Virus record (IMG/VR): IMGVR_UViG_3300031951_008223
Span: 1-20,545 of that record
Direction: 5' to 3' (one strand)
DNA from: a virus
Length of the DNA stretch: 20,545 bases
Every line of letters starts with the position of its first letter. The stretch's first letter is position 1. A program made the translations under genes and the position numbers. The notes below the pieces were generated by a model. That model ran no database searches, had not been told where the DNA came from, and saw only the letters and a program-made list of their open reading frames with translations. Below, in pieces: positions 2,158-20,204 of this stretch.

Positions 2158-5100
2158 ATGACAGAATTTTTATCAGGAATGAATTTATCAGGTAAAGTAA
2201 AAAAGACACCTCCTACAGAAGTGTCTCCGGATAGATACAAGTATATTAAACTTTCTGAAACAGAACCAGATCTCGGTGTTCCAGAAGCAAATAACTATGT
2301 TCTTGCGTCTGATACAGAAGGAAATCGCTTTTGGTTAGAGACGAGTGGAGTTCAAGGAACAACTGGCCTTCAAGGTGAGCAAGGTACGCAAGGAGTTGAA
2401 GGATCTCAGGGTACACAGGGTACTCTTGGTATACAAGGCGAACAAGGTACACAGGGATCTCAAGGCACGCAAGGTCTACGGGGAGACCAAGGTCTTCAGG
2501 GTACTCTTGGTATACAAGGTGAGCAAGGTACACAAGGATCTCAGGGTGCACAGGGTACTTTTGGTATACAAGGTACGGATGGCAACTTTGGCGGGGCATC
2601 GTTTGATTACACCTATAGCACTTCCATTATTCAATCTGACCCAGGCACCGGAAGATTAAAGTTCAATGATGCAGACATAACGACTGCAATTAGAATGTTC
2701 ATCGATGACACAGATGACAACGGTATTGATATTCAATCATTTTTAAGAACAATCGATGATTCTACTTCAACGATTAAAGGACACTTTAGAGTATCTAACA
2801 GAACTGCGTCTCAACGATTCGCTCTCTATACAATTTCATCTATATCAGAAGAAGCAGGGTTTTTCTTAGTTAACTGTGGGTATGTATCTGGGTCAGTTAA
2901 TAACTTTAATGATAACGAAGATATTATCATTACATTTGCTAGAACTGGAGATATTGGAGATATTGGACCACAGGGCGTGCAAGGTGCGCAAGGTGTTCAG
3001 GGAACTCGGGGTCTTCAAGGCGAACAAGGTCTTCAAGGAACGCAGGGCACTCAAGGTTTCCAAGGTACTACTGGGCCACAAGGCGTTCAAGGCACAACCG
3101 GAACTCAAGGAACGACTGGAACCCAAGGTACTATTGGAACACAAGGTCTTCAGGGAACACAAGGTACCCAGGGTACTACTGGTACACAAGGTACAACTGG
3201 GACGCAGGGAAATAATGGATCGCAAGGTCTACAAGGAACACAGGGTGAACAGGGAACCCAAGGCGAACAAGGTATTCAAGGTACTCAGGGAACCCAAGGC
3301 GAACAAGGTATTCAAGGTATTACCGGGACGCAGGGTTTTCAAGGAACATCTGGATTTCAGGGAATTCAGGGAACCGCGGCCATAGACGGAGCAGAAGGTT
3401 CTCAGGGTACGCAAGGTCTCCAGGGTACACAAGGAACTGTCGGATCTCAGGGTCTCCAAGGCGAACAGGGCACTACTGGAACACAGGGTTTTCAAGGCAC
3501 GCAAGGTCTTCAAGGAGAACAGGGAACACAAGGACTCCAAGGCAATCAAGGTGAACAAGGACTTCAGGGAACTCAGGGTGAACAAGGACTCCAAGGCAAT
3601 CAAGGTGAACAAGGACTTCAGGGAACTCAAGGTACCCAAGGTATCCAAGGCGAACAAGGTACTCAAGGTACTCAAGGTCTTCAAGGCGAGCAGGGTACTC
3701 AAGGTCTTCAAGGCGAACAAGGTACTCAAGGTCTTCAAGGCGAGCAGGGAACTCAGGGAACACAAGGTCTTCAAGGTACTCAAGGTGAGCAGGGCACTCA
3801 AGGAACACAAGGTCTTCAGGGAACGCAGGGAACTCAAGGCACGCAAGGTACTCAAGGTCTTCAAGGCGAACAAGGTATTCAAGGTCTCCAAGGCATCGAG
3901 CTCGTATTAAATTATATTGGATCATGGGTGCAGGCTAGCTATGTAAAAGATACTGTTGCTGTAAGCACGGTTGATGGTAACACTTATGTATCAAAGCAAG
4001 TCATCACGTCTGTTTATCAGGACCCTGCGGTTAATACTACTGAATGGGAACTATTTGTTCTACAAGGAACTCAGGGTCTTCAAGGTGAGCAGGGAACTCA
4101 GGGTCTTCAAGGTGAGCAGGGAACTCAGGGTCTTCAAGGTGAGCAGGGAACTCAGGGTCTTCAGGGTGAGCAGGGAACTCAGGGTCTTCAGGGTGAGCAA
4201 GGTACACAAGGACTTCAGGGTGAGCAGGGAACTCAGGGTCTGCAGGGTGAGCAAGGTACACAAGGACTTCAGGGTGAGCAAGGTACACAAGGACTTCAGG
4301 GTGAGCAGGGAACTCAGGGTCTGCAGGGAGATCAAGGTCTTCAAGGTAATTTTGGTATACAAGGTATACAAGGATCTACCGCAGGAGATGCTGCAACTCT
4401 AGACGGATTGGATAGTCTTCAATTCGTAAGATCCGATGTTAGCACCACGATGACCGGTGGTTTCTTAACTCTTGCACAAGATCCATCTGGTAATCTACAA
4501 GCCGTCACAAAACAGTATGTAGATACACTAGTATCTGCGGCTATACATTATCACGACCCAGTTAGAGTAGAGTCACCAATCTCTCTTAATGCTATTTATG
4601 ATAACGGAATATCAGGAGTTGGCGCTACATTAACGAATGGCGGAACTCAGCTAGGTCTTATTATAGATGGAATTACGCTAAGTACTGACAACCGTGTTCT
4701 TTTATATCAACAAGCTAACACGGCTCATAACGGCGTGTATACAGTCACAGATACTGGTTCTGCAAATACTGATTGGGTTCTTACTCGTTCAACCGATACA
4801 GATTCTTACAGCCCAAGCGATTCTGGAAGTATAGGTAGAGGCGACGCGTTTTACGTCCTAGAAGGTAACACCGGAGCCGGCGAACTCTATGTACTGACCA
4901 CAGAAGGAGTCATTACATTTGGAAGCACTGGCATAAACTTCTCACAGATAAGCTCTTCACAGATTTACAAAGCAGGCGCTGGATTAGAACTCAATGGTGT
5001 TGAGTTTTCTATTAATCCAGATGCGAATATTATAGTAAGTGGAGTTACAATACAAAGTATAGGACCTGTAATAAACTCAAGCGGTACGTGGGTTGGAGAT

Positions 5101-7737: not shown

Positions 7738-10647
7738 ATGGGTAAGAAGATTATAAGAGATTACGTTTTTTCTCCTGGCGGTGCTAACGTTGGCACAATA
7801 AAAATACCTGGAAGATATACTTTAGATCAGCTTCTGCTAATTACTAACGTTACAGATAATATTATCCTGTACACATTTGGTAACTCTACATACGGTGGTA
7901 CTACAGCAACGTTTACTGCCGCAAACGACGCAACTAACTTTCCTACTATCACACAGCGAGAAGATGGGTTCACAACGATAACATTGGGAGTAAGCACTAC
8001 TGGTCAGAGTGCTAGTGATTCTCTTCAAATTTTTGTTTACGGTAACGAAAACGCTGCCTCTACTATAAGACCTTGGAGTTTTGGTACTGATGCTATCGAA
8101 AGAATGCGCGTATCAAATCCCGAATCACTCATCGATGCTGACTTTGAATATGGTCTACAGCCGACAAAATGGGCAGGTTATGGAACTGTTCGCGGCTATC
8201 CATCCGCTTATGAATTACCGGGTGTTGACTTAGTTGTAACTGCTATTACTACAGATGGTGCTTCAACAAATAGTTTAATTACAGTCACTACGTCTGTCGC
8301 GCACGGTATCGCTGCGGGACAAGCGATTAATATTTCAGCTCTAAACTCTGGAATTGCAGGATTTAGTAGAGCTGACGGAACATTTATTGTTAACACAGTG
8401 GGTGTACCTAACACTAGCACGCTAACATATTTTGCAAGGGGTGTAGTTGGAACCAATGGACAATCATTACTAACAGATGCTACCACACTAAAGCGTGGAG
8501 CAATCTATTCAGGCGCTTCGATACCAGTAGCATCAGCAACGAGCAATGGTGCTAACCCGTCAGTAATTACTTTAAACTTTACCAACCCACACGGATTAAT
8601 TCCTGGTACTGCTATCCACTCTATCGTTGCATCTGGTACTCAGGCTGCGCTTGCTTCTGGGCCGTTTGTTGTTACGAGTGTTCCTAGTTTAACATCATTA
8701 ACATATACTGCACGAGGTGGCGCTGTTGTTGTGTCTCCAGCGACCGTTACTTTATATGCGTTTACAAATTCTACGATTGTTCACAGACCACAGGACGGCG
8801 GAGTTATTCTTTCAACTAAAACTCCAACATATGGCGCAACAGTTGCTCGTCAGAGTAAAAGATATTTTCGTTATCAATCAGGTAAAGGTTTTCTTTGGTC
8901 GACTGGAACGTTATTTAGACCAAACTATGATATTCGGAGTATAACTGCTTCCGGAACCACCGTCGGTTCTACGATTACTGTTACAACTGATGACATTGAT
9001 CATGGTTTACAGATCGGCGCAGTTATAGAAATAGCAGGATCGACAACTTCTGGGTATAATGGCACATATACAGTAGCATCTATCGTAAGCGACTATCAGT
9101 TTACAGTATTAGCGACCAGTGTACTCGGTGCAACTACTGCAGTGTTAAATATCACGCCAAAGGTGTATGTAATAACATGGGATGGCGCAGCTGTAAGAGC
9201 TGGGTTGTTTGACGAACAAAATGGATTATTCTGGGAATATGATGGTAGTATTTTATCTGTAGTAAAAAGAAATTCTACTGCACAATTAAGTGGAACTCTA
9301 TCTGTTACGCAAAACTCAAATGCGGTGACTGGCGTAAATACAAGATTTACTCAGCAATTAAAAGCAGGCGATAGAATCGTTATCCGCGGTATGACTCACC
9401 ATGTTATACAAGTAGTGAGTGATACTTCTATATTTGTGTCTCCTGATTATAGAGGTATCAATGCTTCTGGTGTAAAGGGTAACTTAATTCAAGAAACAAG
9501 AATTAGGCAGTCGCAGTTCAACATTGATACAATTGACGGAACCGGGCCAAGCGGGTTTAATATTAACCTAAGTAAGATGCACATGGTCGGTCTACAGTAT
9601 TCGTGGTACGGCGCTGGCTTTGTTGATTTTATGGTTCGTGGTAGTGATGGTAACTGGGTTTTCGTGCATCGTATCAAAAATAACAACGTGAATGATGAAG
9701 CTTATATGAGATCTGGTAACCTCCCGGTTCGCTATTCTATCGAAAACGATACTCCAGTAACATCTCTAACTTCTACGATCGACAGCTCAGTTACAACAAT
9801 TCCAGTTGCAGCACTGGAACACTTTCCAACAGCAGGAACATTGTACATAGATAACGAAATTATCAGTTACACAGGTAAGTCAGCGGCAAGTGGAGCTGGT
9901 AACTTTACCGGTGCGACTCGTGCAGCAACACTCACTCAGTGGCAAGCAGGTACTTCGACTGGATTTACTGCTGCGGCTGCTGCAAGCCATACGGCCGGCA
10001 CTGGTGTAATTCTAATAAGTAATACGTGTTCTCCAACTCTAAGTCACTGGGGTTCTGCGTTAATCATGGACGGTGGATTTACTAAGGACCGTGGATACAT
10101 CTTTAACTATCAGAGAGTCGGTTTGAGTCTTACAACCGCGAACCAAACAGCGTTCCTCATTCGTCTTGCTCCATCCGTTTCAAACAGTCAGGTTGGTGGT
10201 CTTGGAGTAAGAGATCTATTGAATCGTTCTCAGCTTCTTCTACAAGCAGTCGGTGTATCTGTTTCAGGTGGTACAAACCCTGGTGCTTGTATTGTTGAAG
10301 GCGTGTTGAATCCTAAGAATTTCTCTTCAGCGACGTGGCTTCCATTAAACGTAGAATCTGCGGGTGGCCAGCCAAGTCTCGCGCAGGTTGCGACTTCTGT
10401 GACTTATAGTGCGGGCACCGTTGCGGTACCAGGTGAACAGGTGTTTGCGTTTGCTGCTCCTTCTACCGCATCTGGCGCAGTGAACGATAGACTAGAACTT
10501 ACGGAACTGAAGGAATTGACTGGTGCTCCACTAGGAGGAGATTTCCAATATCCAGACGGCTCTGACATTCTTGCGATTAATATTCGTTTAACCGCTGGTA
10601 CTGGCACGGGTCACGTTCTTCTTCGTTGGTCAGAAGCTCAAGCATAA
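7738..10647 (+). CDS. Large modular virion structural protein (tail fibre or baseplate-associated)
   Basis: This 969-aa protein resembles large virion proteins of marine T4-like phages. The N-terminus (KIIRDYVFSPGGANVGTIKIPGRY) is followed by a conserved-looking segment near residue 108 (IRPWSFGTDAIERMRVSNPE). Three copies of a small beta module follow, each with an HG(L/I)..G motif, at His189, His285 and His422; they read T..HG...G..I..., then NGT/GPF.V, then a FTY/LTY-like strand. Around 519-575 is a GVNTRF...AGDRIVIRG module, and around 673-740 a TLYIDNEIISYTG module, both familiar phage structural pieces. No enzymatic motif is seen. A GGA-containing Shine-Dalgarno (AAAGGAA) precedes the ATG. 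Structural role fairly secure; exact location in the particle unknown. Confidence 0.75.
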   Translation: MGKKIIRDYVFSPGGANVGTIKIPGRYTLDQLLLITNVTDNIILYTFGNSTYGGTTATFTAANDATNFPTITQREDGFTTITLGVSTTGQSASDSLQIFVYGNENAASTIRPWSFGTDAIERMRVSNPESLIDADFEYGLQPTKWAGYGTVRGYPSAYELPGVDLVVTAITTDGASTNSLITVTTSVAHGIAAGQAINISALNSGIAGFSRADGTFIVNTVGVPNTSTLTYFARGVVGTNGQSLLTDATTLKRGAIYSGASIPVASATSNGANPSVITLNFTNPHGLIPGTAIHSIVASGTQAALASGPFVVTSVPSLTSLTYTARGGAVVVSPATVTLYAFTNSTIVHRPQDGGVILSTKTPTYGATVARQSKRYFRYQSGKGFLWSTGTLFRPNYDIRSITASGTTVGSTITVTTDDIDHGLQIGAVIEIAGSTTSGYNGTYTVASIVSDYQFTVLATSVLGATTAVLNITPKVYVITWDGAAVRAGLFDEQNGLFWEYDGSILSVVKRNSTAQLSGTLSVTQNSNAVTGVNTRFTQQLKAGDRIVIRGMTHHVIQVVSDTSIFVSPDYRGINASGVKGNLIQETRIRQSQFNIDTIDGTGPSGFNINLSKMHMVGLQYSWYGAGFVDFMVRGSDGNWVFVHRIKNNNVNDEAYMRSGNLPVRYSIENDTPVTSLTSTIDSSVTTIPVAALEHFPTAGTLYIDNEIISYTGKSAASGAGNFTGATRAATLTQWQAGTSTGFTAAAAASHTAGTGVILISNTCSPTLSHWGSALIMDGGFTKDRGYIFNYQRVGLSLTTANQTAFLIRLAPSVSNSQVGGLGVRDLLNRSQLLLQAVGVSVSGGTNPGACIVEGVLNPKNFSSATWLPLNVESAGGQPSLAQVATSVTYSAGTVAVPGEQVFAFAAPSTASGAVNDRLELTELKELTGAPLGGDFQYPDGSDILAINIRLTAGTGTGHVLLRWSEAQA

Positions 10648-10658
10648 GGGATTAAAAT

Positions 10659-11024
10659 ATGGTAGTCTTAGCAACAGATTTGATTTCAGCTTATTTGCCG
10701 CCGGGTCCGGCGGTAGAAGTAGAGACTGGAAACAACGCTAATGGTTTTTACGTGCGTCTTGCTGGCGGAACTCAGATGTGCTGGCATACCTTTTCAATAA
10801 CTCCGTCCGCGTCAAACACACCGACACTAGGGGCATGGACTTTTCCGATAGCATTTGCTGCAGCACCATATGTTCATGTTTCTGTTAACTCTACTGTTCC
10901 AGGAACCACAGTTACTGGTTGGTCTTCATCTGGTGCTACTACAACGGCCGTAAACGTGTATATTTCTCGCGCGAACACTACTGCTACGAGCGTGATTGTA
11001 TTTGCTATCGGTAGTTGGATTTAA
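10659..11024 (+). CDS. Small fibre-tip-like protein (gp53-like C-terminal domain type)
   Basis: This 121-aa protein carries the signature NGFYVRLAGGTQMCWH (residues 29-44), then GAWTFPIAFAAAPYVHVSV and a C-terminal strand ending FAIGSWI. This pattern (N G xx V R x x x G T Q x C W, then TFP x A F x x x P) is typical of the terminal domain of many tail fibres, the putative tail fibre gp53-like C-terminal family, normally found at the end of long fibre proteins. Here it stands as a separate gene with only about 28 residues before it. It may be a detached receptor-binding tip or attach to a partner fibre. The start follows an AAGGG Shine-Dalgarno overlapping the upstream stop. It is the last structural gene before the sugar-related cassette. 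Confidence 0.65.
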   Translation: MVVLATDLISAYLPPGPAVEVETGNNANGFYVRLAGGTQMCWHTFSITPSASNTPTLGAWTFPIAFAAAPYVHVSVNSTVPGTTVTGWSSSGATTTAVNVYISRANTTATSVIVFAIGSWI

Positions 11025-11040
11025 TAGTACCGATTTCATT

Positions 11041-11048
11041 GATAAATA
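11041..11048 (+). promoter_or_regulatory. Candidate late promoter box upstream of the glycan cassette
   Basis: GATAAATA differs by one base from the T4 late consensus TATAAATA and lies about 50 bp upstream of the ATG at 11099, in one of only two sizeable intergenic gaps of the window (11025-11098). The position fits a promoter for the cassette 11099-18591. GATAAATA also occurs inside a gene at about 17371, so the match alone is weak. Confidence 0.4.
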
Positions 11049-11098
11049 AATGTAGTTGACAGAACTTACATTCATATTATGAGGAATTTGATTACATC

Positions 11099-12163
11099 AT
11101 GTCATTTTTTGAACACGTCAAAGACGCGCATCAAGTAGAACAAACGTATAGATACGAAACTTCTACAACTCTAGCACAACAAGCGTTAACAGATGGTGGA
11201 AGTATTCATCCACTGATCGTTCCATCAAAGCTCACCGGCGGCACCGGGCTTATGAACCCGTCAATTCTTGTTCATAAAGGAAAACTAATAGTTAATGTAA
11301 GATGCACTAACTATTTCTTTTATCATTCTGAGAAAAAGAAGTTTATCCATCCATGGGGACCTCTTACATATCTTCACCCAGAAGATGATATGAAGTTGCG
11401 CACAGAGAATTTTTATTGTGAGTTGGATGGAAATTATAACATCACTCGAGTAAACCACGTAGACACTTCAAAACTTGATAAAGAACCGATATGGGAATTC
11501 GTTGGTCTTGAGGATGCAAGACTTGTTGAATGGAACGAAAAACTCTACATGACTGGAGTTCGTAGGGATACGAATACGACAGGCCAAGGAAGAATGGAAT
11601 TATCAGAGATAGAGGTTCTCGATAATGAAGTAATAGAAGTATCTCGCACGCGTATCGGTGCTCCTGGCGAAGATACATCTTATTGTGAAAAGAACTGGAT
11701 GCCGGTTCTAGATCAAGATTATACGTACATTAAGTGGTGTAACCCGACAGAAGTAGTTCTTGCTGATATAGAAAAAGCCAAGGCAGAAACCGTGTTTTTA
11801 GGCGACACTCGAATGTTTAATAGAAATCCAAAGGGATTGACTGAACCTAGAGGCGGTTCACAAGTCATTTCTTTTGGTGATTACTATATTGCGTTAACTC
11901 ACGAGGTTGATCTTTTTAAGGGAGAAAAGAAGGTAAAGGACGGAGTGTATCGCCATCGCTTTATCGTATGGGATAAGAATTGGAACATTGTGAAGTTCTC
12001 TGACGACTTTACTATCATGGGTGGTCATACCGAATTTACATGCGGAATGTGCCATTATAAAGGACGAATACTTATTACGTTTGGGTTTCAAGATAACGCC
12101 GCTTATCTACTCGAAGTGCCGTATGCGACTATTGAAAAATTTGTAAATAATGCGAAGGTTTGA
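11099..12163 (+). CDS. Beta-propeller glycosidase/phosphorylase-like protein (GH130-like), copy A
   Basis: This 354-aa protein has repeated short beta strands and motifs reminiscent of five-bladed propeller glycoside-active enzymes of the GH130/GH43 type: NPSI..HKGKLIVNVR near residue 55, GLEDAR at 136-141, YCEKNWMP at 195-202, RGGS at 251-254 and HTEF near 308. In GH130 enzymes, which phosphorolyse or hydrolyse mannosides, an acidic ED.R motif lies in the active site; whether the assignment holds here is uncertain. No signal peptide or membrane segment is present. The next gene holds a clear paralogue of the whole domain. The gene opens the cassette, with GAGGA at 11081-11085 as a possible, somewhat distant Shine-Dalgarno. 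Alternatives are a non-catalytic glycan-binding propeller or an uncharacterised phage family. Confidence 0.5.
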   Translation: MSFFEHVKDAHQVEQTYRYETSTTLAQQALTDGGSIHPLIVPSKLTGGTGLMNPSILVHKGKLIVNVRCTNYFFYHSEKKKFIHPWGPLTYLHPEDDMKLRTENFYCELDGNYNITRVNHVDTSKLDKEPIWEFVGLEDARLVEWNEKLYMTGVRRDTNTTGQGRMELSEIEVLDNEVIEVSRTRIGAPGEDTSYCEKNWMPVLDQDYTYIKWCNPTEVVLADIEKAKAETVFLGDTRMFNRNPKGLTEPRGGSQVISFGDYYIALTHEVDLFKGEKKVKDGVYRHRFIVWDKNWNIVKFSDDFTIMGGHTEFTCGMCHYKGRILITFGFQDNAAYLLEVPYATIEKFVNNAKV

Positions 12164-12167
12164 TATG
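12154..12167 (+). promoter_or_regulatory. Shine-Dalgarno and start deciding the 12165 gene
   Basis: GAAGG at 12154-12158 lies six bases before the ATG at 12165, directly after the stop of the upstream gene (TGA 12161-12163). An in-frame ATG at 12150 would place the Shine-Dalgarno inside the coding region, so 12165 is preferred. The junction to the next gene (13761-13770) has nearly the same layout: AGG, TTGAT, ATG. Confidence 0.7.
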
Positions 12168-13766
12168 ACGGAAGAAATAAAACAGTTGATCACGATGTTC
12201 GCTCTTAATCCTAGTGACCCAGAAGTTAGTTTTATGATCGGTTCGTACTATGAGGATTTAGGTCAGTACTCATCGGCAGGGTCTTATTACTTACGCTCGG
12301 CAGAAAGATTCGATGATAGAAATAAATCTTATGAGAGTCTAATAAGATTAGCAACATGCATGCAATCTTTGGGAAGACGGAAATATTCAACAAAGGGCCT
12401 TCTAAACTTTGCGATATCTCATATGCCAACGCGTCCAGAAGCATATTTAATTCTAAGCAAGTTCATTGAGAGCAGCGAAACGAATGACGAGAGGTGGTTT
12501 ACTGCCTATTCACTCGTGTCTACCGCGCTAAGCATTCCAGACTTAGATAGTTTAAAATCGTTGAGAAGAAAAACCACATATGATGGAAAGTATTCTCTCT
12601 TACTTCAGAAAGCTCATGCTGGTTTTCATAGCGGGTTCATAGAGGAATCTAGAGAGATACTTCTTTCTATTATAAACAGCAGTGATGCCCCTAGACATCA
12701 TCAGAAAGCTGCTATGAAAAATCTAATGATGATCAAAAAAGAAAATCATAGGTCTCAATACTATCATAACGAAACTCCGTTAAAAGATGTTTACCAATCT
12801 AGTCTAGCAAAGTACGCATTAGCAAATGGCGGATCGATCCATCCTATTGTTGTACCTCACTCTGTATCAAAAGGAATGGCGACAACAAACGCGTCTGTAT
12901 TTGTTGACAGTCAAGAAAGAGTCTTTGTAAATCTCAGAGAAACTAACTATACTCTTTATTATAGTAATAAGTTTCCAGATAAAGATGGGCCTTTAAAATA
13001 TCTTTATCCTGATAGTGATATTAACATCAGGTCCGAAAACGTTGTATGTAGACTTGACGATCGTCTTAATGTTATATCTGCGGACAGAATTGATATGAAA
13101 CTTAATGAGGATCCTAACTGGTTCTACATTGGGTTGGAAGATGGAAGACTCATAGAATGGGAAGGTAAAAAGTATCTCTGCGGAGTAAGAAGGGATCATA
13201 TACTCGAAGGTAAGGGTAGGATGGATCTTTCACAGATTGAGATAACCAAGAACGGCGTGGTTGAGGTAGAACGGTTTTCAATTCCAGCGCCGGGAAACGA
13301 CGACACCTACTGTGAAAAGAACTGGATGCCTATTCTAGACAAGCCGTTCCAATGGGTGAAGTGGACCAACCCAACTCAGATAGTTTCATTCGATACTAAA
13401 ACTCTAAAGACTAACACCGTACATCTTGAGGAGTCTAAAAAGTATCGGTTCCCTCGTGATCTAAGAGGTGGTTCGCATATCATACCTTGGAACGAAGACT
13501 ACTACATTGGCATTACTCACGAATGCATGTATAATAACAACGATAGCGGAAGAAGATACTTTCAGAGAATTATAGTTTGGGACAGAGACTGGAATATAGT
13601 ATGTTCCACTCGTGACTTTACAATGATGAGTGGATCTATTGAGTTTGTTTCAGGTATTGCTTATCATAAGAACGATGTGCTTATATCGTATGGGTACGAG
13701 GATAACACATCATATATACTAAGAATACCAAAAAATGTATTTGACGATTTTGTTTTGAGAGGTTGA
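12165..13766 (+). CDS. TPR region fused to a GH130-like beta-propeller domain, copy B
   Basis: This 533-aa protein has two parts. Residues 1 to about 130 form helical TPR-like repeats (FMIGSYYEDLGQYSSAGSYY, then SYESLIRLATCMQSLG and RPEAYLILSKF). From about residue 205 to the end lies a paralogue of the preceding 354-aa protein, sharing GGSIHP, GPL.YL.P..D, GLED.R (323-328), GVRRD...G.GRM.LS.IE, YCEKNWMP (382-389), KW.NPT, RGGS and IVWD..WNIV. Copy B has GLEDGR where copy A has GLEDAR. The TPR part is itself homologous to the N-terminus of the following gene, so the protein looks like a join of two neighbouring modules. TPRs commonly mediate protein contacts and may tether this enzyme to partners of the cassette. 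Sugar-active function is inferred from motifs only. Confidence 0.55.
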   Translation: MTEEIKQLITMFALNPSDPEVSFMIGSYYEDLGQYSSAGSYYLRSAERFDDRNKSYESLIRLATCMQSLGRRKYSTKGLLNFAISHMPTRPEAYLILSKFIESSETNDERWFTAYSLVSTALSIPDLDSLKSLRRKTTYDGKYSLLLQKAHAGFHSGFIEESREILLSIINSSDAPRHHQKAAMKNLMMIKKENHRSQYYHNETPLKDVYQSSLAKYALANGGSIHPIVVPHSVSKGMATTNASVFVDSQERVFVNLRETNYTLYYSNKFPDKDGPLKYLYPDSDINIRSENVVCRLDDRLNVISADRIDMKLNEDPNWFYIGLEDGRLIEWEGKKYLCGVRRDHILEGKGRMDLSQIEITKNGVVEVERFSIPAPGNDDTYCEKNWMPILDKPFQWVKWTNPTQIVSFDTKTLKTNTVHLEESKKYRFPRDLRGGSHIIPWNEDYYIGITHECMYNNNDSGRRYFQRIIVWDRDWNIVCSTRDFTMMSGSIEFVSGIAYHKNDVLISYGYEDNTSYILRIPKNVFDDFVLRG

Positions 13767-13767
13767 T

Positions 13768-14787
13768 ATGCTTGTAGAAAAGATTAAATCTTATGTAAGT
13801 GATCCAGAAAACGCGCAGTTCAACTACGATCTTGGAAAGGAGTATGAAGTACTTAAACAGTACTCTGCCGCCTGCGGATACTTTTTAAGAGCTGCGGATA
13901 GAACTGACGACAACGAGTTGGTCTATAATTCTTTAGTGTCAGCCGCAAAGTCTCTAATAGAGCACGGTGACAGCTTCGCAATCGTAGATAAGATTTTAAA
14001 GCATGCTATGTCAATAGATACGTCAAGAATAGACGCGTTTTATCTTATGCTGCTAACTTATAAATATATTGGAGAAGATCAAGCATTTGAGGAAATGCAC
14101 CCAGTCTTTCTTCGACTAAAAGAAGAAACCACTAAGAGCGAGATATATGATATGATAAATTTGAACGATATAATGAAGAAGTACATTCCTTCGATTGGTA
14201 CTATTAGATACTCCGAAGACCAACCACAAAAAGATTTCAAACACATGATAGAGAAAGAGTTTGCAGCGGCTGCTACGACTCCTAGTGACATTCATGAACA
14301 CTTGCCGGTTCTATACGAACTCGCCAAAGAATGCAATCATATAACAGAGATGGGTGTAAGGTTTGGAGTTAGTACTAGGGCATTCTTGAGAGCTAACGCA
14401 AAACTAATTTCTTATGACATCGTTACAGATCAAAAAGTAGTTGAACTCATGAATAATGCTAGTTCCGCTGGAAAAGACACAAAGTTCATTGAAGCGGATG
14501 TTCTTAATGTCGAGATTGAGGAGACAGATCTTTTGTTTATAGACACATGGCACGAATATGAACAACTAAAGAAAGAACTATCTCTTCATGCTAACAAAGT
14601 AAGAAAGTACATCGCATTTCATGATACGAACACATATGGTCTAAAAAATGAAGGTGGAGACAACAAACAACTTACACAAGGGCTCCTTCCTGCGATTATA
14701 GAGTTTCTTATTGAAAATCAAAATTGGAGATTTAAGATGTTTCTTACAAACAACAATGGTCTCACAGTGCTAGAAAGAATTTCGTAA
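13768..14787 (+). CDS. TPR region fused to a class I SAM-dependent methyltransferase-like domain
   Basis: This 339-aa protein begins with TPR-like helices (residues 1 to about 120; YDLGKEYEVLKQYSAACGYF and the following SLVSAAKSL) clearly related to the N-terminus of the upstream gene. Residues from about 165 look like a Methyltransf_24-type domain. The SAM-binding glycine motif is E194-M-G-V-R-F-G-V-S202; the second acidic strand is LLFIDTWHEYEQL with Asp259, His262 and Tyr264; and FHDT lies at 284-287, typical where a metal- or substrate-binding His/Asp sits in sugar O-methyltransferases and cephalosporin-hydroxylase-like enzymes. The start lies one base after the upstream stop behind GAGAGG. 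The stop overlaps the next ATG (TAATG). Likely substrate is a sugar or nucleotide-sugar, inferred from the neighbourhood. Confidence 0.65.
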   Translation: MLVEKIKSYVSDPENAQFNYDLGKEYEVLKQYSAACGYFLRAADRTDDNELVYNSLVSAAKSLIEHGDSFAIVDKILKHAMSIDTSRIDAFYLMLLTYKYIGEDQAFEEMHPVFLRLKEETTKSEIYDMINLNDIMKKYIPSIGTIRYSEDQPQKDFKHMIEKEFAAAATTPSDIHEHLPVLYELAKECNHITEMGVRFGVSTRAFLRANAKLISYDIVTDQKVVELMNNASSAGKDTKFIEADVLNVEIEETDLLFIDTWHEYEQLKKELSLHANKVRKYIAFHDTNTYGLKNEGGDNKQLTQGLLPAIIEFLIENQNWRFKMFLTNNNGLTVLERIS

Positions 14788-15503
14788 TGAATAGTCTAAA
14801 TGACAACATATCATTTGATGGTATAGATTCTATAGAAACTGTAGCAACGCTATATCACGAATTCTTTATAAGAAATGATTACGATTGGTGGTATAAAGTT
14901 CAACCAAACGACATCGTAGTGGACATAGGTGCATGTAACGGAATGTTCACATGTCATGCTCTGGACAACGGCGCCAAAAAGGTGTATTCTATCGAGGGAA
15001 ATTCTAAACTCATAAAAACAGTAATACACAATGCGTCACCACATATCATAAATAAAAAAGAATCTCCATTGGTTCCTATTAACTGCGTTATAGGGAATGA
15101 CCCAATGTATACTAGAAATGTTTTTGGCGAAGGATATGATAAGGCCGTTCCTATTCGTTCGTTTAAAGATATCATAAAGGAATATGATATCACGCATATA
15201 GACTATCTTAAGATAGATGCCGAAGGAGCCGAATATGATATCTTGTCAGAAGAAAATCTTGAATTCATAAAAAATAATGTTAAACACATTGCGGTCGAAG
15301 TGCATCTTGATTGCTTTGAAGATGCGCCAGTTTTATTCAAAAAATTTAGAGACAACTTCTTATCAAAATTTGATGCAAGTAAGATAAAATATCTTCAGGA
15401 AGATTCACAACAGAAAATGTATGACGATGCATATTTGAATTCAAAGTGGCCTCTCGGTTGGGGAAGCTGTTGGATGATCTACATCTGCAACAAGTCATTA
15501 TAA
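14787..15503 (+). CDS. FkbM-family methyltransferase, copy 1
   Basis: This 238-aa protein matches FkbM/Methyltransf_21 enzymes, which O-methylate sugars or related small substrates using SAM. Visible motifs are the SAM-binding VDIGACNG (Asp46, Gly48, Gly52), an acidic post-motif I segment VYSIEGN, a conserved PIRSFKDIIKEY, and the family-typical LKIDAEGAEYDIL (Asp144, Glu146, Gly147, Glu149). The usual FkbM domain length of about 160 residues is complete. The ATG overlaps the preceding TAA, so translation is coupled to the TPR-methyltransferase. A second, divergent FkbM gene lies at 17112-17843, on the other side of the GT17 fusion gene. No signal peptide or membrane segment. Family assignment is strong; the substrate is unknown. 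Confidence 0.85.
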   Translation: MNSLNDNISFDGIDSIETVATLYHEFFIRNDYDWWYKVQPNDIVVDIGACNGMFTCHALDNGAKKVYSIEGNSKLIKTVIHNASPHIINKKESPLVPINCVIGNDPMYTRNVFGEGYDKAVPIRSFKDIIKEYDITHIDYLKIDAEGAEYDILSEENLEFIKNNVKHIAVEVHLDCFEDAPVLFKKFRDNFLSKFDASKIKYLQEDSQQKMYDDAYLNSKWPLGWGSCWMIYICNKSL

Positions 15504-15509
15504 TAATTT

Positions 15510-15528
15510 GAGAGGTACAAATAATATG
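15510..15528 (+). promoter_or_regulatory. Shine-Dalgarno and start deciding the GT17 fusion gene
   Basis: GAGAGG at 15510-15515 stands ten bases before ATG 15526. A longer reading frame opens at a TTG at 15508, but this would bury the Shine-Dalgarno in the coding region and add a non-conserved prefix before MIVDFFPFF, the usual start of GT17-like proteins. The ATG at 15526 is therefore preferred. Confidence 0.75.
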
Positions 15529-17109
15529 ATAGTCGATTTCTTTCCTTTCTTTGCTCCATACGGAGAAGAAACACTTAAGCTGAGATATGAAGTACTTAAG
15601 GATCATGTAGATTATTTTGTTATATCAGAGTCAAATAAAACTCACGCTGGTCATAAAGTTGAAAGACAGTTTCCTGAGATCGCAGGCAGACTTGAGATGG
15701 ATCCAAATAAGATCATCTATATAGCACACGATATACCGGACGACGACAAGTTGGAGATCCTTCCTATTGATATTCAAAACACGTATGGAAATCGTGATAA
15801 GATTGAATCGCAAAGAGCAAGAGCTCGTGAGCGCCTTCAGAAAGACGCGCTCCTAAAAGTCCTCGACACGTTTGATGATGATACTGTCTTTATTCACGGC
15901 GATGCTGATGAAATCATTCGGCCGGATGGAATTCCGTATCTATCACGTGTCTGCCGAGAAAACCAAGAGATAATCATTAAGGTTCCACTCGTTTATCTCG
16001 AAGGAAGAGCAGATCTTCGTCTTTATCACAGAGATAGTAACACACCGGTTCAATGGTCCGGCGCAATGTTTCTTGCTACGAAAGCTCAACTTAAAAGGGC
16101 TACACCAGCGCAGATACGTTCAAATGTAAATAACCCGTTTCCAATTCATTATATTACGGAAAACGGTGCTGCTATTCAGGATCTTGGATGGCACTTCTCT
16201 TGGATGGGTGGGCCTGAAAAGCGAGCCCTGAAGTCTCAAGTATGGGCCCATTATAACGACTCATTCGAGTGGTTAGGAGGAAATGAAACAGACAGCATTA
16301 AAGAGATAAAGTCATACCGTGACGAGACATACGTGACATTCTTAACAGAGAACGAAATGAAAGAAGGATCTACTCCGCCTTCTGGAAATAAAAATCACGT
16401 CTTAAAGAAGTACTCTATTAGTGGGCTACCAAAAGAAATTCTTGAGAGCGAGTACTTAAAGAACTACTTTCTGCCAGATGTCAAAGAAGATAGTTTAGAT
16501 GTATTTGAAAGGGCTGTTATAAATCCTTCTTCTCTAATAAGCCCGTATAAAAAGAGAGTATGGATCGTAGACGATTTCTATCATAACCCAGATGAAGTAA
16601 GACAGTATGCTCTAACTCGTGAATTCGATAAGGGTGGCTTCGGAAAAGGATATATGGGAAATAGAACTTTTAAACAGTTTCTATTCCCAGGCCTGAAGGA
16701 AGAATTTGAAAAGATCATGGGAATGAAGATTACAAAATGGGAACAACATGGTATGAATGGCAGGTTCCAGACATGTTATGCAGGAGATGCTCTTGTTTAT
16801 CACTGCGACGATCAGAAATATGCTGGTATGTTATTCCTAACACCCGACGCGCCATTCGAGACTGGTACTTCAATGTACGCGCATAAGGCAACACGTATTC
16901 GTCACAATTCTCATCCAGAGATCATGAGCACCTTCTCTGGGCACACTACTCTCGATAAAACTCCATATGAACCGGTCGACGTAGTTGGAAATGTCTATAA
17001 CAGACTCGTCATATTTGACGCAGGTATGATTCACGCAGCATCCGGATACTTCGGATATAACAACGAGAATTCTCGCTTGTGGCAAATGTTCTTTTTTGAC
17101 GCGGAGTAA
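15526..17109 (+). CDS. Fusion of GT17-type glycosyltransferase and putative 2OG-Fe(II) oxygenase domain
   Basis: This 527-aa protein has two domains. Residues 1 to about 285 resemble glycosyltransferase family 17 (beta-1,4-N-acetylglucosaminyltransferase type): MIVDFFPFF at the start, LKDHVDYFVISESNKTHAG, an acidic D126-A-D-E129 likely serving as metal/nucleotide-sugar motif, then LGWHFSWMGG and a basic SQVWAHY segment. After a linker, residues from about 340 to 527 look like a 2OG-Fe(II) dioxygenase of the DUF6445-like kind: RVWIVDDFYHNPDEVRQYAL, a His426-x-Asp428 pair (YHCDD), distal His503 (GMIHAASGYFG) and Arg517, matching the H-x-D...H...R pattern for iron and 2-oxoglutarate. Together they could hydroxylate and glycosylate a target. 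It lies between two FkbM methyltransferase genes. The GT17 call is fairly strong, the oxygenase call moderate, and the substrate unknown. Confidence 0.7.
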   Translation: MIVDFFPFFAPYGEETLKLRYEVLKDHVDYFVISESNKTHAGHKVERQFPEIAGRLEMDPNKIIYIAHDIPDDDKLEILPIDIQNTYGNRDKIESQRARARERLQKDALLKVLDTFDDDTVFIHGDADEIIRPDGIPYLSRVCRENQEIIIKVPLVYLEGRADLRLYHRDSNTPVQWSGAMFLATKAQLKRATPAQIRSNVNNPFPIHYITENGAAIQDLGWHFSWMGGPEKRALKSQVWAHYNDSFEWLGGNETDSIKEIKSYRDETYVTFLTENEMKEGSTPPSGNKNHVLKKYSISGLPKEILESEYLKNYFLPDVKEDSLDVFERAVINPSSLISPYKKRVWIVDDFYHNPDEVRQYALTREFDKGGFGKGYMGNRTFKQFLFPGLKEEFEKIMGMKITKWEQHGMNGRFQTCYAGDALVYHCDDQKYAGMLFLTPDAPFETGTSMYAHKATRIRHNSHPEIMSTFSGHTTLDKTPYEPVDVVGNVYNRLVIFDAGMIHAASGYFGYNNENSRLWQMFFFDAE

Positions 17110-17111
17110 AG

Positions 17112-17843
17112 ATGAATTACGAAAACTTTGATTGGGGTCCAACAGATAAAGAATATGCAAACTTATTTACTAAAGAAAATTTTATCGATAGAACATACGA
17201 ACTATTATATAAGATAAAAGAAATCGATGTCGTTGTAGATATTGGTGCAAACGTTGGTTCTTTCATATATTCTCTAAAGGATATTAAACCTAAACACGCA
17301 TTTTGTTTAGAACCATCAAACATTGTATTCAAAACGCTGGAAAAAAATCTAGAAATATTTTCGTGTACACTGATAAATAAAGGTATATCTGGAGTAGATA
17401 CCGACTACAACATAATCAAACCGGGGTCAGATTATATCTATCATCACGCCGGCAGTATGTTTTCAACTATTCGGTTCGATACGTTAATAAAAGATTATAA
17501 CATAGAGACGATAGATTTCTTAAAATTTGATTGCGAAGGCGGGGAAGCTTTTATCTTCACTAAAGAAAATTCTTCTATGATCAAAAAAATAGTTAAGAAC
17601 ATAGCTGGTGAATATCACATAGTCGGAGTTCCAAATTCTATAGAGAACTTTATAGAATTTAGAGATAACTACCTGTTAGATTTAAGAGGAACAGAACATC
17701 TGCGTGTATATGAAAGAGATGGAAAAGACGTAACAGAACAAATTTTCGATAACAACTTTTTGCGTGCCTATGAAGAGTGGTGGAGAATTAATAACCCATA
17801 TAAGGGTCAGTTTATGGTATATGCAAATTTGAAAGGAATGTAG
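17112..17843 (+). CDS. FkbM-family methyltransferase, copy 2
   Basis: This 243-aa protein is a second FkbM/Methyltransf_21 enzyme. It has VDIGANVGSF (Asp43, Gly45, Gly49), the acidic CLEPSN strand and the family signature LKFDCEGGEAFIF (Asp140, Glu142, Gly143, Glu145), preceded by a STIRFDTLIKDYNIETIDF segment corresponding to RSFKDIIKEYDITHIDY in copy 1. Similarity to copy 1 outside the motifs is modest, so the two probably methylate different positions or substrates rather than being a recent duplication. The C-terminus carries an aromatic stretch (YEEWWRINNPYKG). It begins two bases after the GT17 fusion gene and ends one base before the next ATG. No signal peptide or membrane segment is seen. 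Confidence 0.82.
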   Translation: MNYENFDWGPTDKEYANLFTKENFIDRTYELLYKIKEIDVVVDIGANVGSFIYSLKDIKPKHAFCLEPSNIVFKTLEKNLEIFSCTLINKGISGVDTDYNIIKPGSDYIYHHAGSMFSTIRFDTLIKDYNIETIDFLKFDCEGGEAFIFTKENSSMIKKIVKNIAGEYHIVGVPNSIENFIEFRDNYLLDLRGTEHLRVYERDGKDVTEQIFDNNFLRAYEEWWRINNPYKGQFMVYANLKGM

Positions 17844-17844
17844 A

Positions 17845-18591
17845 ATGAAGATAGTACTTGTAACTGGTGGTTTCGATCCCCTTCATAGCGGTCATATTGC
17901 ATACTTTAATGAAGCAAAAGAACTCGGAGATATTCTAATAGTTGGAGTAAATAGTGACGAATGGCTGACTCGTAAAAAGGGTCAGCCATTCATGAGTCTA
18001 TCAGAAAGAGTTGCGATCGTTGAGAGCCTTCATATGGTCGATAGTGTCATGATATTTGACGATAGTGACGGCGGGGCGTCCGAAGCGATTAAGCTGTGTC
18101 TAGGAAAGTATCCACACGATGAAATCATTTTTGCGAACGGTGGTGATAGAACCGATAGCAATATTCCGGAAATGAGTATCGTAGACAGCCGACTATCGTT
18201 TGTGTTTGGAGTCGGTGGAACTCATAAGATGAATTCTAGCAGTAAGATCCTTACTGAGTGGAAGACACCTAAGACGGAAAGAAAGTGGGGATACTATCGA
18301 GTCCTACACTCGGACGGTCCTTCTACAAAAGTAAAAGAACTCATAGTCGAGCCAGGAAAGTCTCTCAGTCTTCAGAGACATAGTTTTAGAAACGAACTAT
18401 GGTACGTTACAAATGGTACCGGTGCTATCAAACTAAACGGAGTGTTGTCGCCTTTAAAGAAAGGCGACTTTGTAAACATATATGTTTCTGACTGGCACCA
18501 ACTCATTAACGATTCTTCTGAAGAACTAAAGATTGTTGAGATCCAGTATGGACAGAACTGCTACGAAGAAGATATCGAGCGCATCGAGTAA
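17845..18591 (+). CDS. Fusion of cytidylyltransferase-like nucleotidyltransferase and phosphomannose-isomerase-type cupin
   Basis: This 248-aa protein joins two sugar-metabolism domains. Residues 1 to about 135 are a HIGH-type nucleotidyltransferase: GGFDPLHSGH with His14 and His17, GVNSDEWL, a basic RKKGQPFMSLSER, FANGGDRT and a late SSSKIL motif. This class transfers CMP or AMP to a phosphorylated sugar or alcohol. Residues from about 148 form a cupin like the C-terminal domain of type II mannose-6-phosphate isomerase/ManC: KWGYYRVL, VKELIVEPGKSLSLQRH, metal-ligand candidates Gln177, His179, Glu184 and His218, and IVEIQYGQNCYEEDIERIE. Together they could isomerise and activate a sugar phosphate. 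The gene ends the cassette and is followed by the 119-bp gap with the late promoter. Domain calls are strong; the actual sugar is not known. Confidence 0.85.
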   Translation: MKIVLVTGGFDPLHSGHIAYFNEAKELGDILIVGVNSDEWLTRKKGQPFMSLSERVAIVESLHMVDSVMIFDDSDGGASEAIKLCLGKYPHDEIIFANGGDRTDSNIPEMSIVDSRLSFVFGVGGTHKMNSSSKILTEWKTPKTERKWGYYRVLHSDGPSTKVKELIVEPGKSLSLQRHSFRNELWYVTNGTGAIKLNGVLSPLKKGDFVNIYVSDWHQLINDSSEELKIVEIQYGQNCYEEDIERIE

Positions 18592-18678: not shown

Positions 18679-18686
18679 TATAAATA
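18679..18686 (+). promoter_or_regulatory. T4-type late promoter upstream of gene 13
   Basis: TATAAATA matches exactly the T4 late promoter consensus, which in T4 is recognised by the phage sigma factor gp55 with gp33 and the gp45 clamp. It ends 24 bp before the ATG of gene 13, in the only gap over 100 bp in the window. The leader then carries an AGGGTGA Shine-Dalgarno at 18698-18704. Position, sequence and the late nature of neck genes agree. It probably drives genes 13, 14 and the fibre-like gene that follows. Confidence 0.85.
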
Positions 18687-18710: not shown

Positions 18711-19454
18711 ATGGCACGTCCTTCAACAAGAAGCGAATTCAAAGATTATGTTCTTAGAAAGATCGGTGCGCCAGTCATTCAGATCAACGTTTCTGATGAA
18801 CAGATAGAAGATCGTATTGACGAGGCAATAGCATTCTGGAGAGACTACCACTATGATGGTAGCCAGATGATATATCTTAAGCATGCTCTAACACAACAAG
18901 AGATAGATCAGGGATATATCGAAGTACCACAAAACATTCTCGGTATCACTCGTATCTTTGATCTTAGCTCTTCTATCTCGACCGGTACCGGCTTCTTCAA
19001 CGTTCAATACCAATTCGTTTTGAACAACCTAGAAGACATTACTGGGTACAACATTCAGCATTACTACATGGCTCTATCTCACCTACAGTTCCTGCAAGAA
19101 ATACTTGTAGGCCGCCCTCTCATAAGATACAATCGCCATGTAAACCGTTTATATGTAGATGTAAATAAGGCCATATTGAATCCTGGGTCGTTTATCATTA
19201 TAGAGGGATATGACATTATTGATGGCAACACATACTCCGACGTATGGAGCGATCGCTTTCTTCAGAACTATGCGTCTATCTTAATACGCGAGCAGTGGGG
19301 TGTAAACCTAACTAAGTTTACAAACATGCAACTTATCGGAGGTGTTCAGTTCAACGGCGAACAGATCCTATCGGAAGCAAAAGCAGACCGCAAAGAGATG
19401 GAAGAAAATGCGAAGACTTCACTTCAACCACTCGTTTACAATTTCGTTGGATGA
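18711..19454 (+). CDS. 13: Neck protein gp13
   Basis: This 247-aa protein is a homologue of the T4 head-completion/neck protein gp13, of the shorter length usual in cyanophage-type relatives (T4 gp13 is about 309 aa). Recognisable stretches are SEFKDYVLRKIGAPVIQINV with EDRIDEAIAFWRDYHYDG, the GITRIFDL strand, IRYNRHVNRLYVDVN, LNPGSFIIIEGYDIIDGNTY and a C-terminal LIREQWGVNLTKF...QLIGGVQFNGEQIL. In T4, gp13 with gp14 forms the neck closing the filled head and allowing tail joining. The gene follows a perfect late promoter and a good Shine-Dalgarno. It ends in tandem stops (TGA TAA) directly before gene 14, mirroring T4 order. Assignment is confident. Confidence 0.93.
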   Translation: MARPSTRSEFKDYVLRKIGAPVIQINVSDEQIEDRIDEAIAFWRDYHYDGSQMIYLKHALTQQEIDQGYIEVPQNILGITRIFDLSSSISTGTGFFNVQYQFVLNNLEDITGYNIQHYYMALSHLQFLQEILVGRPLIRYNRHVNRLYVDVNKAILNPGSFIIIEGYDIIDGNTYSDVWSDRFLQNYASILIREQWGVNLTKFTNMQLIGGVQFNGEQILSEAKADRKEMEENAKTSLQPLVYNFVG

Positions 19455-19457
19455 TAA

Positions 19458-20204
19458 ATGGCGACTAACGTCTTTTTTCAAAACTATGGATACTTCAATG
19501 AGCAGCAACTCATTGACGACTTAGTCATTGAAGCAATACAGATCTACGGTGTTGATACTTACTATGTTACTCGAAAGTTAGAAGCGACCGACCAGATACT
19601 CAATGAAGACGATCTTTCAATCTTTAATGCGGCTTACTTAATGGAAGTATACGTAAAGAGCGTGGACGGTTTTCAGGGAGATGGTGACTTTCTTAGTAAG
19701 TTTGGTCTTCAGATTCGTGACCAAGTTACTTTTACTGTTGCGGTGAGAACTTTTGAAAGATACGCAACTAGATTGAATACTACTCTCATAAGACCGAAGG
19801 AAGGCGACCTTATATATCTTCCTCTCAATAATAAATTCTTTGAGATCTCTCATGTTGAGCACGAAAGCGTTTTCTATCAGAGCGGAGCTCTTCAAGTATT
19901 TGATCTTAAGTGTGAACTGTTTGAATACTCGAACGAAAGATTCGACACCGGAATTGAAGATATAGATACACACTTCGATGTTTTAAACACTGAAGATCTT
20001 GAAGTTAACAATCTTAATAAACTACTAGAAAAAGATCCAATCGCAAAGAACGTATTCTTTGAAGAAGAAGGCGATGATATTATTGACTTCACTGAGATAG
20101 ATCCGTTTAGTGAGATTATCACAAGACCAACTAATTATGCTGTAACCGCCGATAATAACGAAATCACTGCTGACGCTACTGTTGTAACAGCAGATACCAT
20201 ATAA
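19458..20204 (+). CDS. 14: Neck protein gp14
   Basis: This 248-aa protein is a homologue of T4 gp14, partner of gp13 in the neck. It shows the family start VFFQNYGYFNEQQLIDDLVIEAIQIYGVDTYYV, then EAYLMEVYVKSVDGFQGDGDFLSKFGLQIRD-like text (residues about 58-90), RPKEGDLIYLPLNNKFFEI and a VFDLKCELFEYSNERFDTGI segment. From about residue 200 an acidic stretch (FFEEEGDDIIDF) leads to a low-complexity C-terminal tail with repeated VTADNNEITADAT-type text. The ATG lies directly after the tandem stops of gene 13, so the pair is almost certainly cotranscribed and coupled. In T4 the next gene is 15; here a fibre-like gene follows instead. Confidence 0.92.
   Translation: MATNVFFQNYGYFNEQQLIDDLVIEAIQIYGVDTYYVTRKLEATDQILNEDDLSIFNAAYLMEVYVKSVDGFQGDGDFLSKFGLQIRDQVTFTVAVRTFERYATRLNTTLIRPKEGDLIYLPLNNKFFEISHVEHESVFYQSGALQVFDLKCELFEYSNERFDTGIEDIDTHFDVLNTEDLEVNNLNKLLEKDPIAKNVFFEEEGDDIIDFTEIDPFSEIITRPTNYAVTADNNEITADATVVTADTI

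Follow-up and report, generated by a model that had tools for sequence, protein, structure and literature searches.

A GH130-like gene and a tetratricopeptide repeat gene form the near-constant core of a candidate glycan-decoration cassette in T4-like aquatic phages

Several described viral systems resemble the locus reported here. The "host recognition cluster" (HRC) of pelagimyophages and cyanomyophages, a hypervariable island of the structural region that extends up to the neck gene gp14 and carries tail fibres and glycosyltransferases (GTs), already describes this kind of location, and its radical S-adenosylmethionine (SAM) cassettes differ between two close genomes (PMC7029224). The Mimivirus protein L230 joins a GT to a hydroxylase acting on collagen-like proteins, and the a64r protein of the algal virus PBCV-1, which is missing in some close relatives, couples sugar transfer to O-methylation domains in a single fusion protein; viral GT-hydroxylase and GT-methyltransferase enzymes are therefore already known (PMC4691112). 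GTs of mycobacteriophages act on virion proteins (Freeman 2023, as described in PMC12363180 and PMC12619734), and mannose-6-phosphate isomerases and many 2-oxoglutarate (2OG) oxygenases have been reported from cyanophages (PMC9602691). Here, we analyzed a stretch of 20,545 bases (hereafter the window) that constitutes the entire virus record IMGVR_UViG_3300031951_008223 and that carries, between its fibre genes and T4-type neck genes, a cassette of seven genes including two GH130-like propellers, one of them fused to tetratricopeptide repeats (TPR).

Our best reading is that this cassette lies inside an HRC: the right border of gp13 and gp14 is present, as are the fibres, on a record that is a 20.5-kb fragment, and the accessory parts vary here as the radical SAM cassettes do in the published island. 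However, the available text on the HRC names neither a GH130-like/TPR core nor a GT-oxygenase fusion, and the word "methyltransferase" is absent from its main text (PMC7029224). Likewise, a64r is one fusion protein of an algal virus, with no mention of GH130 or TPR in the portions of PMC4691112 consulted, and the mycobacteriophages, which are unrelated, modify their capsid and tail tube, with no mention of a module of methyltransferases and oxygenases in the passages available (PMC12363180, PMC12619734). Within the openly licensed PubMed Central literature, which excludes subscription papers and preprints and was seen in part, no description of a GH130-TPR phage module was found. It is clear from our results that the cassette is a two-gene GH130-TPR core with exchangeable accessory parts, not one conserved unit. 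Whether it forms a modular phage glycan-decoration system whose likeliest target is the phage's own collagen-like or tail fibre protein is, in our judgment, an evenly balanced question.

The seven open reading frames were found on one strand at the place given for them in a preliminary description of the window, 11099 to 18591, with inter-gene gaps, in order, of -14, +1, -1, +4, +2, and +1 nt:

11099..12163, + strand: gene 1, GH130-like propeller with a catalytic-type Asp139 (GLED); PF04041 at 19.8 bits (cut-off 26), AlphaFold model
12150..13766, + strand: gene 2, N-terminal TPR and a second GH130-like domain; profile architecture TPR-GH130, GLED motif retained (D331)
13768..14787, + strand: gene 3, TPR and a Methyltransf_24-like SAM methyltransferase; PF13578 at 23.8 bits, just below 26.3 (E 8.5e-5), with a SAM-loop-like motif at residue 194
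14787..15503, + strand: gene 4, FkbM-family methyltransferase; PF05050 at 49.5 bits (cut-off 22.7), TIGR01444 at 60.6 (cut-off 37.7)
15508..17109, + strand: gene 5, GT17-like glycosyltransferase fused to an Fe(II)/2OG-type oxygenase; PF04724 at 30.6 bits (cut-off 26), DUF6445/phrog_1644
17112..17843, + strand: gene 6, FkbM-family methyltransferase; PF05050 at 32.6 bits (cut-off 22.7), TIGR01444 at 51.1 (cut-off 37.7)
17845..18591, + strand: gene 7, RfaE-like nucleotidyltransferase and type-II mannose-6-phosphate isomerase cupin; PF01467 at 55.9 bits, PF01050 at 69.6 (cut-off 23.6), HSGH at residue 14

The domain types that the preliminary description had proposed were upheld, those of genes 1 and 3 only below the Pfam cut-off. 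Its two GH130-like genes were both confirmed, but in gene 2 it had overlooked the fusion to TPR. The two FkbM proteins, genes 4 and 6, carry the SAM loops DIGACNG and DIGANVG. The N-terminal part of gene 7 was also considered as an HldE/RfaE heptose adenylyltransferase, an assignment rejected at a TIGR02199 score of 80.9 against a cut-off of 181.5. By hydropathy the cassette enzymes are soluble, with no membrane-like stretch in any of the seven proteins (top 19-residue mean 1.11), and the domains called across all seven include no flippase, ligase, or acetyltransferase and no nucleotide-sugar synthesis beyond the gene 7 fusion.

The evidence for the core comes from the neighborhoods of gene 1 relatives. 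From at least 600 IMG/VR matches to gene 1, the best 80 were used together with two phage records. Clustering of these 82 anchors at 90% identity merged 33 loci into others and left 49 clusters, 44 of them with at least six genes downstream. A TPR protein stands next to the GH130 gene in 42 of these 49 non-redundant clusters, with gaps of -41 to +43 nt, and lies at most six genes away in 48; in the remaining cluster, L068, the GH130 and TPR profiles match the same reading frame. The GH130-TPR distance correlation was 0.79, a value reached by none of 5000 permutations. Other families are found less regularly within six genes on either side of GH130, namely the oxygenase in 28 clusters, collagen-like proteins in 23 (defined in all neighborhood and adjacency counts by a triplet-run rule), the window-type FkbM in 22, and GT17 in 12, followed by the nucleotidyltransferase (8), gp13 (7), Methyltransf_24 (2), and a virion structural protein (VSP; 2). 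The corresponding distance correlations with GH130 were 0.59 for gp13 (n = 15; 1 of 2000 permutations), 0.47 for GT17 (n = 10; 21 of 2000), 0.40 for the oxygenase (n = 27; 0 of 2000), 0.26 for the nucleotidyltransferase (n = 8; 246 of 2000), and 0.19 for FkbM (n = 22; 170 of 2000), whereas the GH130-TPR correlation on those same subsets was 0.72-0.91.

Genes 5 and 7 were also used as anchors. With gene 5 as the anchor (79 loci, 49 clusters), GH130 and TPR were both on the locus in 40 clusters and neither was in 5, which speaks against the genes occurring independently and never together, the pattern that the preliminary description had set against its own proposal. With gene 7 as the anchor (71 loci, 18 clusters), both were present in 7 clusters and neither in 11, several of the latter on short contigs. 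Several of these core-less gene 7 relatives (L206-L232) have another gene neighborhood in common. The idea of an accessory sugar-modification module is thus supported to the extent that the genes occur together; a fixed seven-gene pathway is not, since the seven families do not form a constant set and, apart from the near-constant GH130 and TPR genes, they come and go.

The exchange of the accessory parts can be followed both within the TPR proteins and downstream of them. Among 51 TPR proteins, profiles at E 0.01 matched TPR_17 in 31, FkbM in 18, Methyltransf_24 in 17, and radical SAM, SPASM, and DUF6445 in 5 each, while matches among another 60 genes from these runs included GT2 (22), GT25 (8), radical SAM (6), SPASM (5), and a sulfotransferase (1), alongside single or double matches to terminase, gp15, kelch, and DUF families. 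Mapped onto a tree of GH130 from 48 loci, the minimum numbers of changes were 13 for presence of the oxygenase, 12 for the TPR fusion partner, 9 for GT17, and 8 for FkbM, counts that can be inflated by incomplete contigs and profile limits. The closest large relative, L174 (218 kb), is 88, 83, 77, 71, and 92% identical to the window in genes 1, 2, 3, 5, and 7 and 96 and 86% identical in the neck genes gp13 and gp14, and in it (L174-L176) the FkbM genes 4 and 6 are missing gene-exactly, with their neighbors abutting. In Synechococcus phage DSL-LC02, the gene annotated as an FkbM methyltransferase alone (L002, 12457-14610) is a TPR-FkbM-radical SAM-SPASM fusion.

Relatives of gene 1 are widespread in environmental viral sequence, with at least 600 matching stretches in IMG/VR, and nearly absent from annotated phage records, where 2 of 50,697 matched: DSL-LC02, which is metagenome-assembled (PMC10611076), and S-SCSM2R, which carries the GH130-TPR core and whose record gives Synechococcus WH7803, a laboratory strain, as the host. 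T4-type gp23 was present in 13 of 15 large GH130-bearing records and photosystem genes scored over the cut-off in 4, and GH130 was found in 16 of 19 contigs chosen instead for a gp13 match (about 38 kb or more). One record of 222,563 bases (G012, also L100), in which the gp23 match is split across both contig ends, may be a near-complete circular genome though it is classed as linear. A scan of bacterial and archaeal genomes confirmed 5 of 23 pattern matches, all on genome-bin contigs of 3-18 kb; because a TPR gene adjoins GH130 in all five, and one also carries gp13 and gp14, these contigs appear to be phage sequence caught up in the bins. A recent acquisition from a bacterial operon is accordingly disfavored, although the two search patterns may miss distant cellular relatives.

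The AlphaFold model of gene 1, built from 39 sequences (predicted local distance difference test [pLDDT] 83.3, predicted template modeling score [pTM] 0.88), predicts a GH130-type propeller fold. Its top solved matches are GH130 phosphorylases, with VIA Z scores of 24.1 (5ay9) and 23.5 (9gph), and across GH130 chains the scores were 20.8-24.1 over 269-286 residues at root-mean-square deviations of 3.2-4.0, compared with 17.2-18.2 for Leishmania MPT chains and at most 18.8 for GH43 among the matches listed. The Leishmania MPT proteins are mannosyltransferases/phosphorylases, classed as GT108. The whole-protein PF04041 score of gene 1 was below the curated cut-off in two scans (19.8 and 12.4 bits against 26), and searches of solved structures with the sequence and its profile returned nothing usable, so that the kinship with GH130 rests on the model, the sub-threshold Pfam match, and the profile alignment. 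In the last of these, the catalytic Asp139 (GLED) aligns with the GCED of 30 cellular GH130 proteins (hhalign 88.7%, 95 columns), and R68, E138, D139, R155, K198, R251, H268, and D332 are invariant in all 39 aligned rows. By motif, N53, R68, E138, D139, and D332 correspond to N74, R89, E141, D142, and D363 of BT3780, the longer alignment being weak; the roles of the GH130 catalytic Asp and mannose-binding residues are described in PMC4599007.

Gene 1 appears to share with the GH130 mannoside phosphorylases and beta-1,2-mannosidases and with Leishmania MPT (PMC4599007; PDB 5ay9, 9gph, and 6q4z) the propeller fold and, in hhalign alignments, the positions of Asn, Arg, the Glu-Asp pair, and the distal Asp. 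Unlike those enzymes, it scores below the Pfam cut-off, is paired with TPR, is virus-bound within our searches, and seems to have R251 and H268 close to where hydrolases carry their base Glu, a part that only the low-confidence global alignment reaches. The basic and His residues at this point tentatively suggest, through a weak alignment, that gene 1 may be a phosphorylase or transferase. Several pithovirus LCPAC proteins among the BFVD predicted viral structures also resemble gene 1 (template modeling [TM] score about 0.7), which may point to a broader family of such proteins in viruses.

Gene 5 offers a parallel to known collagen-modifying enzymes. In its GT17 part the DxD motif is intact, with D132, D134, and E135 invariant in 17 rows, and in the oxygenase part H432, D434, H509, and R523 are likewise invariant in 17 rows, a HxD...H and Arg set that we take to be the Fe(II) facial triad and the 2OG-binding Arg. 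The model (pLDDT 82.4, pTM 0.63) places the C-terminal part on a double-stranded beta-helix fold, as expected of an Fe(II)/2OG oxygenase. In a Foldseek search, human LH3 took ranks 1-6 and COLGALT1 ranks 9-10, with chondroitin synthases in between; LH3 and COLGALT1 glycosylate collagen. In a second structural comparison, the best matches of the oxygenase part were OGFOD1 (Z 13.6), the prolyl hydroxylase 4j25 (12.9), and PHD2 (about 12). Like L230 and LH3 (PMC4691112; PDB 6fxr), and in the order typical of the LH3/PLOD/L230 group, gene 5 has a GT domain followed by a 2OG oxygenase domain, and collagen-like candidate substrates are nearby. It differs from them in being GT17-like and DUF6445-like by sequence, in a TM score of 0.24, in an oxygenase part nearest to OGFOD1/P4H/PHD folds, and in the Lys-free repeats of the neighboring fibre, which lack the substrate of that group. 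The phrog_1644 family and the cyanophage records of syn9, S-SSM4, and S-WAM2 name the oxygenase domain of gene 5 a "minor coat protein", a label that seems doubtful in view of the HxD/H/R set and the prolyl-hydroxylase-like fold.

The window reads on one strand, from a fibre/baseplate-like gene through the collagen-like fibre, further fibre or structural genes, the cassette, and the gp13- and gp14-type neck genes to the start of a baseplate-type gene, and it is most likely a fragment of a larger phage genome. The features flanking the cassette are as follows:

2158..7341, + strand: collagen-like fibre protein of 1727 aa with a C-terminal S74 chaperone; PF01391 in 14 stretches, PF13884, tail fibre PHROGs
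7738..10647, + strand: virion structural/tail fibre protein upstream of the cassette; phrog_5838, E 9.2e-256
10659..11024, + strand: small tail-fibre-like protein immediately 5' of the cassette; phrog_2712 tail fiber, E 6e-18
18679..18686, + strand: TATAAATA, T4-type late promoter-like site 5' of gp13, by sequence match
18711..19454, + strand: neck gp13-like protein, right border of the cassette; phrog_211 head-tail adaptor, E 9.9e-38
19458..20204, + strand: neck gp14-like protein; PF11649 T4_neck-protein at 134.5 bits, phrog_460

We take the phrog_211 neck protein to be gp13. The spaces on either side of the cassette are 74 nt (5') and 119 nt (3'). A scan of the + strand from 11000 to 11099 found no sigma-70-like site where a promoter before the cassette had been suspected, and although a TATAAATA site lies where a late promoter after it had been suspected, the two copies in the window are at chance level (mean 1.45). 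A perfect TTGACA-16-TATAAT with TG before the -10 lies at 18653-18626 on the - strand, in the gap upstream of gp13, and points opposite to the surrounding genes. Downstream of the cassette, the neck genes gp13 and gp14 are found not only in the window but also in L177, L183, L195, L198, L202, and L205. Of these loci, the window, L177, L195, and L198 have labeled fibre or structural genes 5' of the cassette. The arrangement differs in L174, where a structural gene intervenes between the cassette and gp13; this VSP-type gene (10880-16036 there) follows the cassette, whereas its counterpart in the window (7738-10647; 44% identity over 330 residues) precedes it, indicating that the structural genes around the cassette vary in order. 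Among the genes immediately upstream of GH130 in 38 of the 39 loci with a listed gene (L062, with the gene on the opposite strand, was left out), phrog_5073 tail fibre was found in 10 and phrog_1806 collagen-like minor tail in 9, two sets that overlap.

The collagen-like fibre of 1727 aa is the proposed acceptor of the glycan. Its runs of six or more repeats add up to 331 Gly-X-Y triplets, which contain 212 Thr, 31 Ser, 6 Asn, and 4 Pro but no Lys. Given this Thr-rich and Lys-free composition, O-linkage to Thr is the obvious candidate, which modification of lysine in the manner of LH3 is not. For comparisons between whole records, in which collagen-like means PF01391, we used 15 GH130 records chosen for length and variety among the known GH130 loci and 8 named cyanophages taken from earlier matches, a non-random set in which the absence of GH130 from the controls rests on the gene 1 search of annotated phage records. 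PF01391 scored over the cut-off in 14 of the 15 and in none of the 8, one of which, S-SSM7, has a match below it (17.3 bits). In the 19 gp13-chosen contigs, collagen was found in 14. Combining both samples, with four shared records counted once, the near-identical cassettes G003 and G082 both kept, and G081 being a contig-end fragment, collagen-like proteins were present in 23 of 27 GH130-bearing and 1 of 11 GH130-lacking records (Fisher p 2e-5, which ignores lineage and habitat). It is this association, together with an LH3-like enzyme, that leads us to lean toward a virion target.

If the fibre is indeed the target, the enzymes might act as follows, with the order of the steps throughout our own inference. 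In the host cytoplasm, the TPR proteins would hold the enzymes on their substrate, and GT17-like enzymes (GT2 or GT25 in relatives) would start a glycan on Thr or Ser in the Gly-X-Y repeats of the fibre. A beta-mannosyl-type unit would then be added or trimmed by the GH130-like enzyme in the role of a phosphorylase or transferase, FkbM and Methyltransf_24 enzymes would O-methylate the glycan, and the Fe(II)/2OG oxygenase would hydroxylate peptide or sugar, with the gene 7 fusion supplying mannose and an activated sugar or polyol. Swaps of accessory enzymes would alter the fibre coat.

A number of our results weigh against the fibre as the target. With no Lys and only 4 Pro in its repeats, the fibre is no ordinary target for LH3/P4H-type hydroxylation; the whole-chain TM score of gene 5 to LH3 is just 0.20-0.24, and LH3 is not among the best 50 matches of the second structural comparison, which cover the oxygenase part. 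A common lineage or habitat could underlie the association with collagen-like proteins, given that the 8 named controls are marine-type cyanophage isolates, and the gp13-anchored sample taken alone (13 of 16 contigs with GH130 versus 1 of 3 without) gives p 0.15. A collagen-like gene adjoins the core in just 9 of 49 clusters and is absent from 24 of the 49 fetched loci, and GH130 distances correlate beyond permutation with the oxygenase and gp13 as well. Action at an earlier step would fit as well, since the late TATAAATA shows no enrichment upstream of GH130 (4 of 48 genes, versus 31 of 484 others), whereas, among genes with an upstream gap of at least 40 nt, sigma-70-like sites (a score of at least 10 of 12) precede 10 of 33 GH130 genes versus 7 of 89 others (p 0.003, for one of several features examined) and, when the 40-nt filter is lifted, 11 of 47 GH130 starts versus 20 of 493. 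These sites would also suit enzymes that remodel the O-chain or another surface glycan of the infected cell, for example, to block superinfection or re-adsorption of progeny, an alternative that we take seriously although we consider it less likely than the fibre reading. The authors of PMC7029224 favor host O-chain modification for such islands and interpret the hypervariable HRC with its GTs, from VrlC to gp14, in this way; RfaE-like and mannose-isomerase domains are typical of lipopolysaccharide (LPS) and capsule pathways, and GT25 and GT2 occur among the accessory genes. Modification of the host surface is harder to reconcile with the lack of a membrane anchor by hydropathy and of a flippase, ligase, or acetyltransferase in the domain calls, with a core family that looks virus-bound and not as if it had lately been copied from an LPS operon of the host, and with the association with collagen-like proteins.

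Two further explanations would dispense with a surface glycan altogether. Phage GTs are known to glucosylate phage DNA (PMC12619734, PMC7029224), and GT and methyltransferase genes might hypermodify DNA bases with sugars; this seems very improbable to us, as the domain calls of the cassette contain no base-modifying enzyme, the GH130-like and RfaE/isomerase domains belong to carbohydrate-pathway families, and the cassette is set between fibre genes and neck genes. Alternatively, auxiliary genes with no relation to one another may have piled up in a hypervariable island, without joint function, which would account for the fast turnover of the accessory genes, for the 11 of 18 clusters in which gene 7 occurs apart from the core, and for the few unrelated genes in the downstream runs. 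However, it would not account for the adjacency and correlation of the core genes, for the predominance of GTs, methyltransferases, oxygenases, and radical SAM enzymes among the commonest accessory matches, or for the TPR fusions that link core and accessory domains, and we regard it as unlikely.

Returning to decoration of the fibre, a more specific version can be put forward tentatively, namely that T4-like aquatic phages carry a dedicated machine for glycosylating collagen fibres. A virus-bound propeller glycosidase or transferase and a TPR docking protein would form its core, and swappable GT, methyltransferase, oxygenase, and radical SAM domains would write a variable, methylated glycan on Thr-rich, triple-helical tail fibres. 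Such a machine would be a bacterial-virus counterpart of LH3 and L230 that uses Thr, not hydroxylysine, and its product a combinatorial surface code under rapid exchange. A GH130-like gene beside a TPR gene provides a searchable marker for the module, which is common in IMG/VR and rare in annotated phage records. If the host is the target, the module would be a widespread superinfection-exclusion system. If the fibre is the target, the glycan on the receptor-binding apparatus would give widespread aquatic phages a second, rapidly changing means of recognizing hosts or of withstanding proteases, a layer added to the protein itself, and efforts to predict hosts by protein sequence alone would miss this layer.

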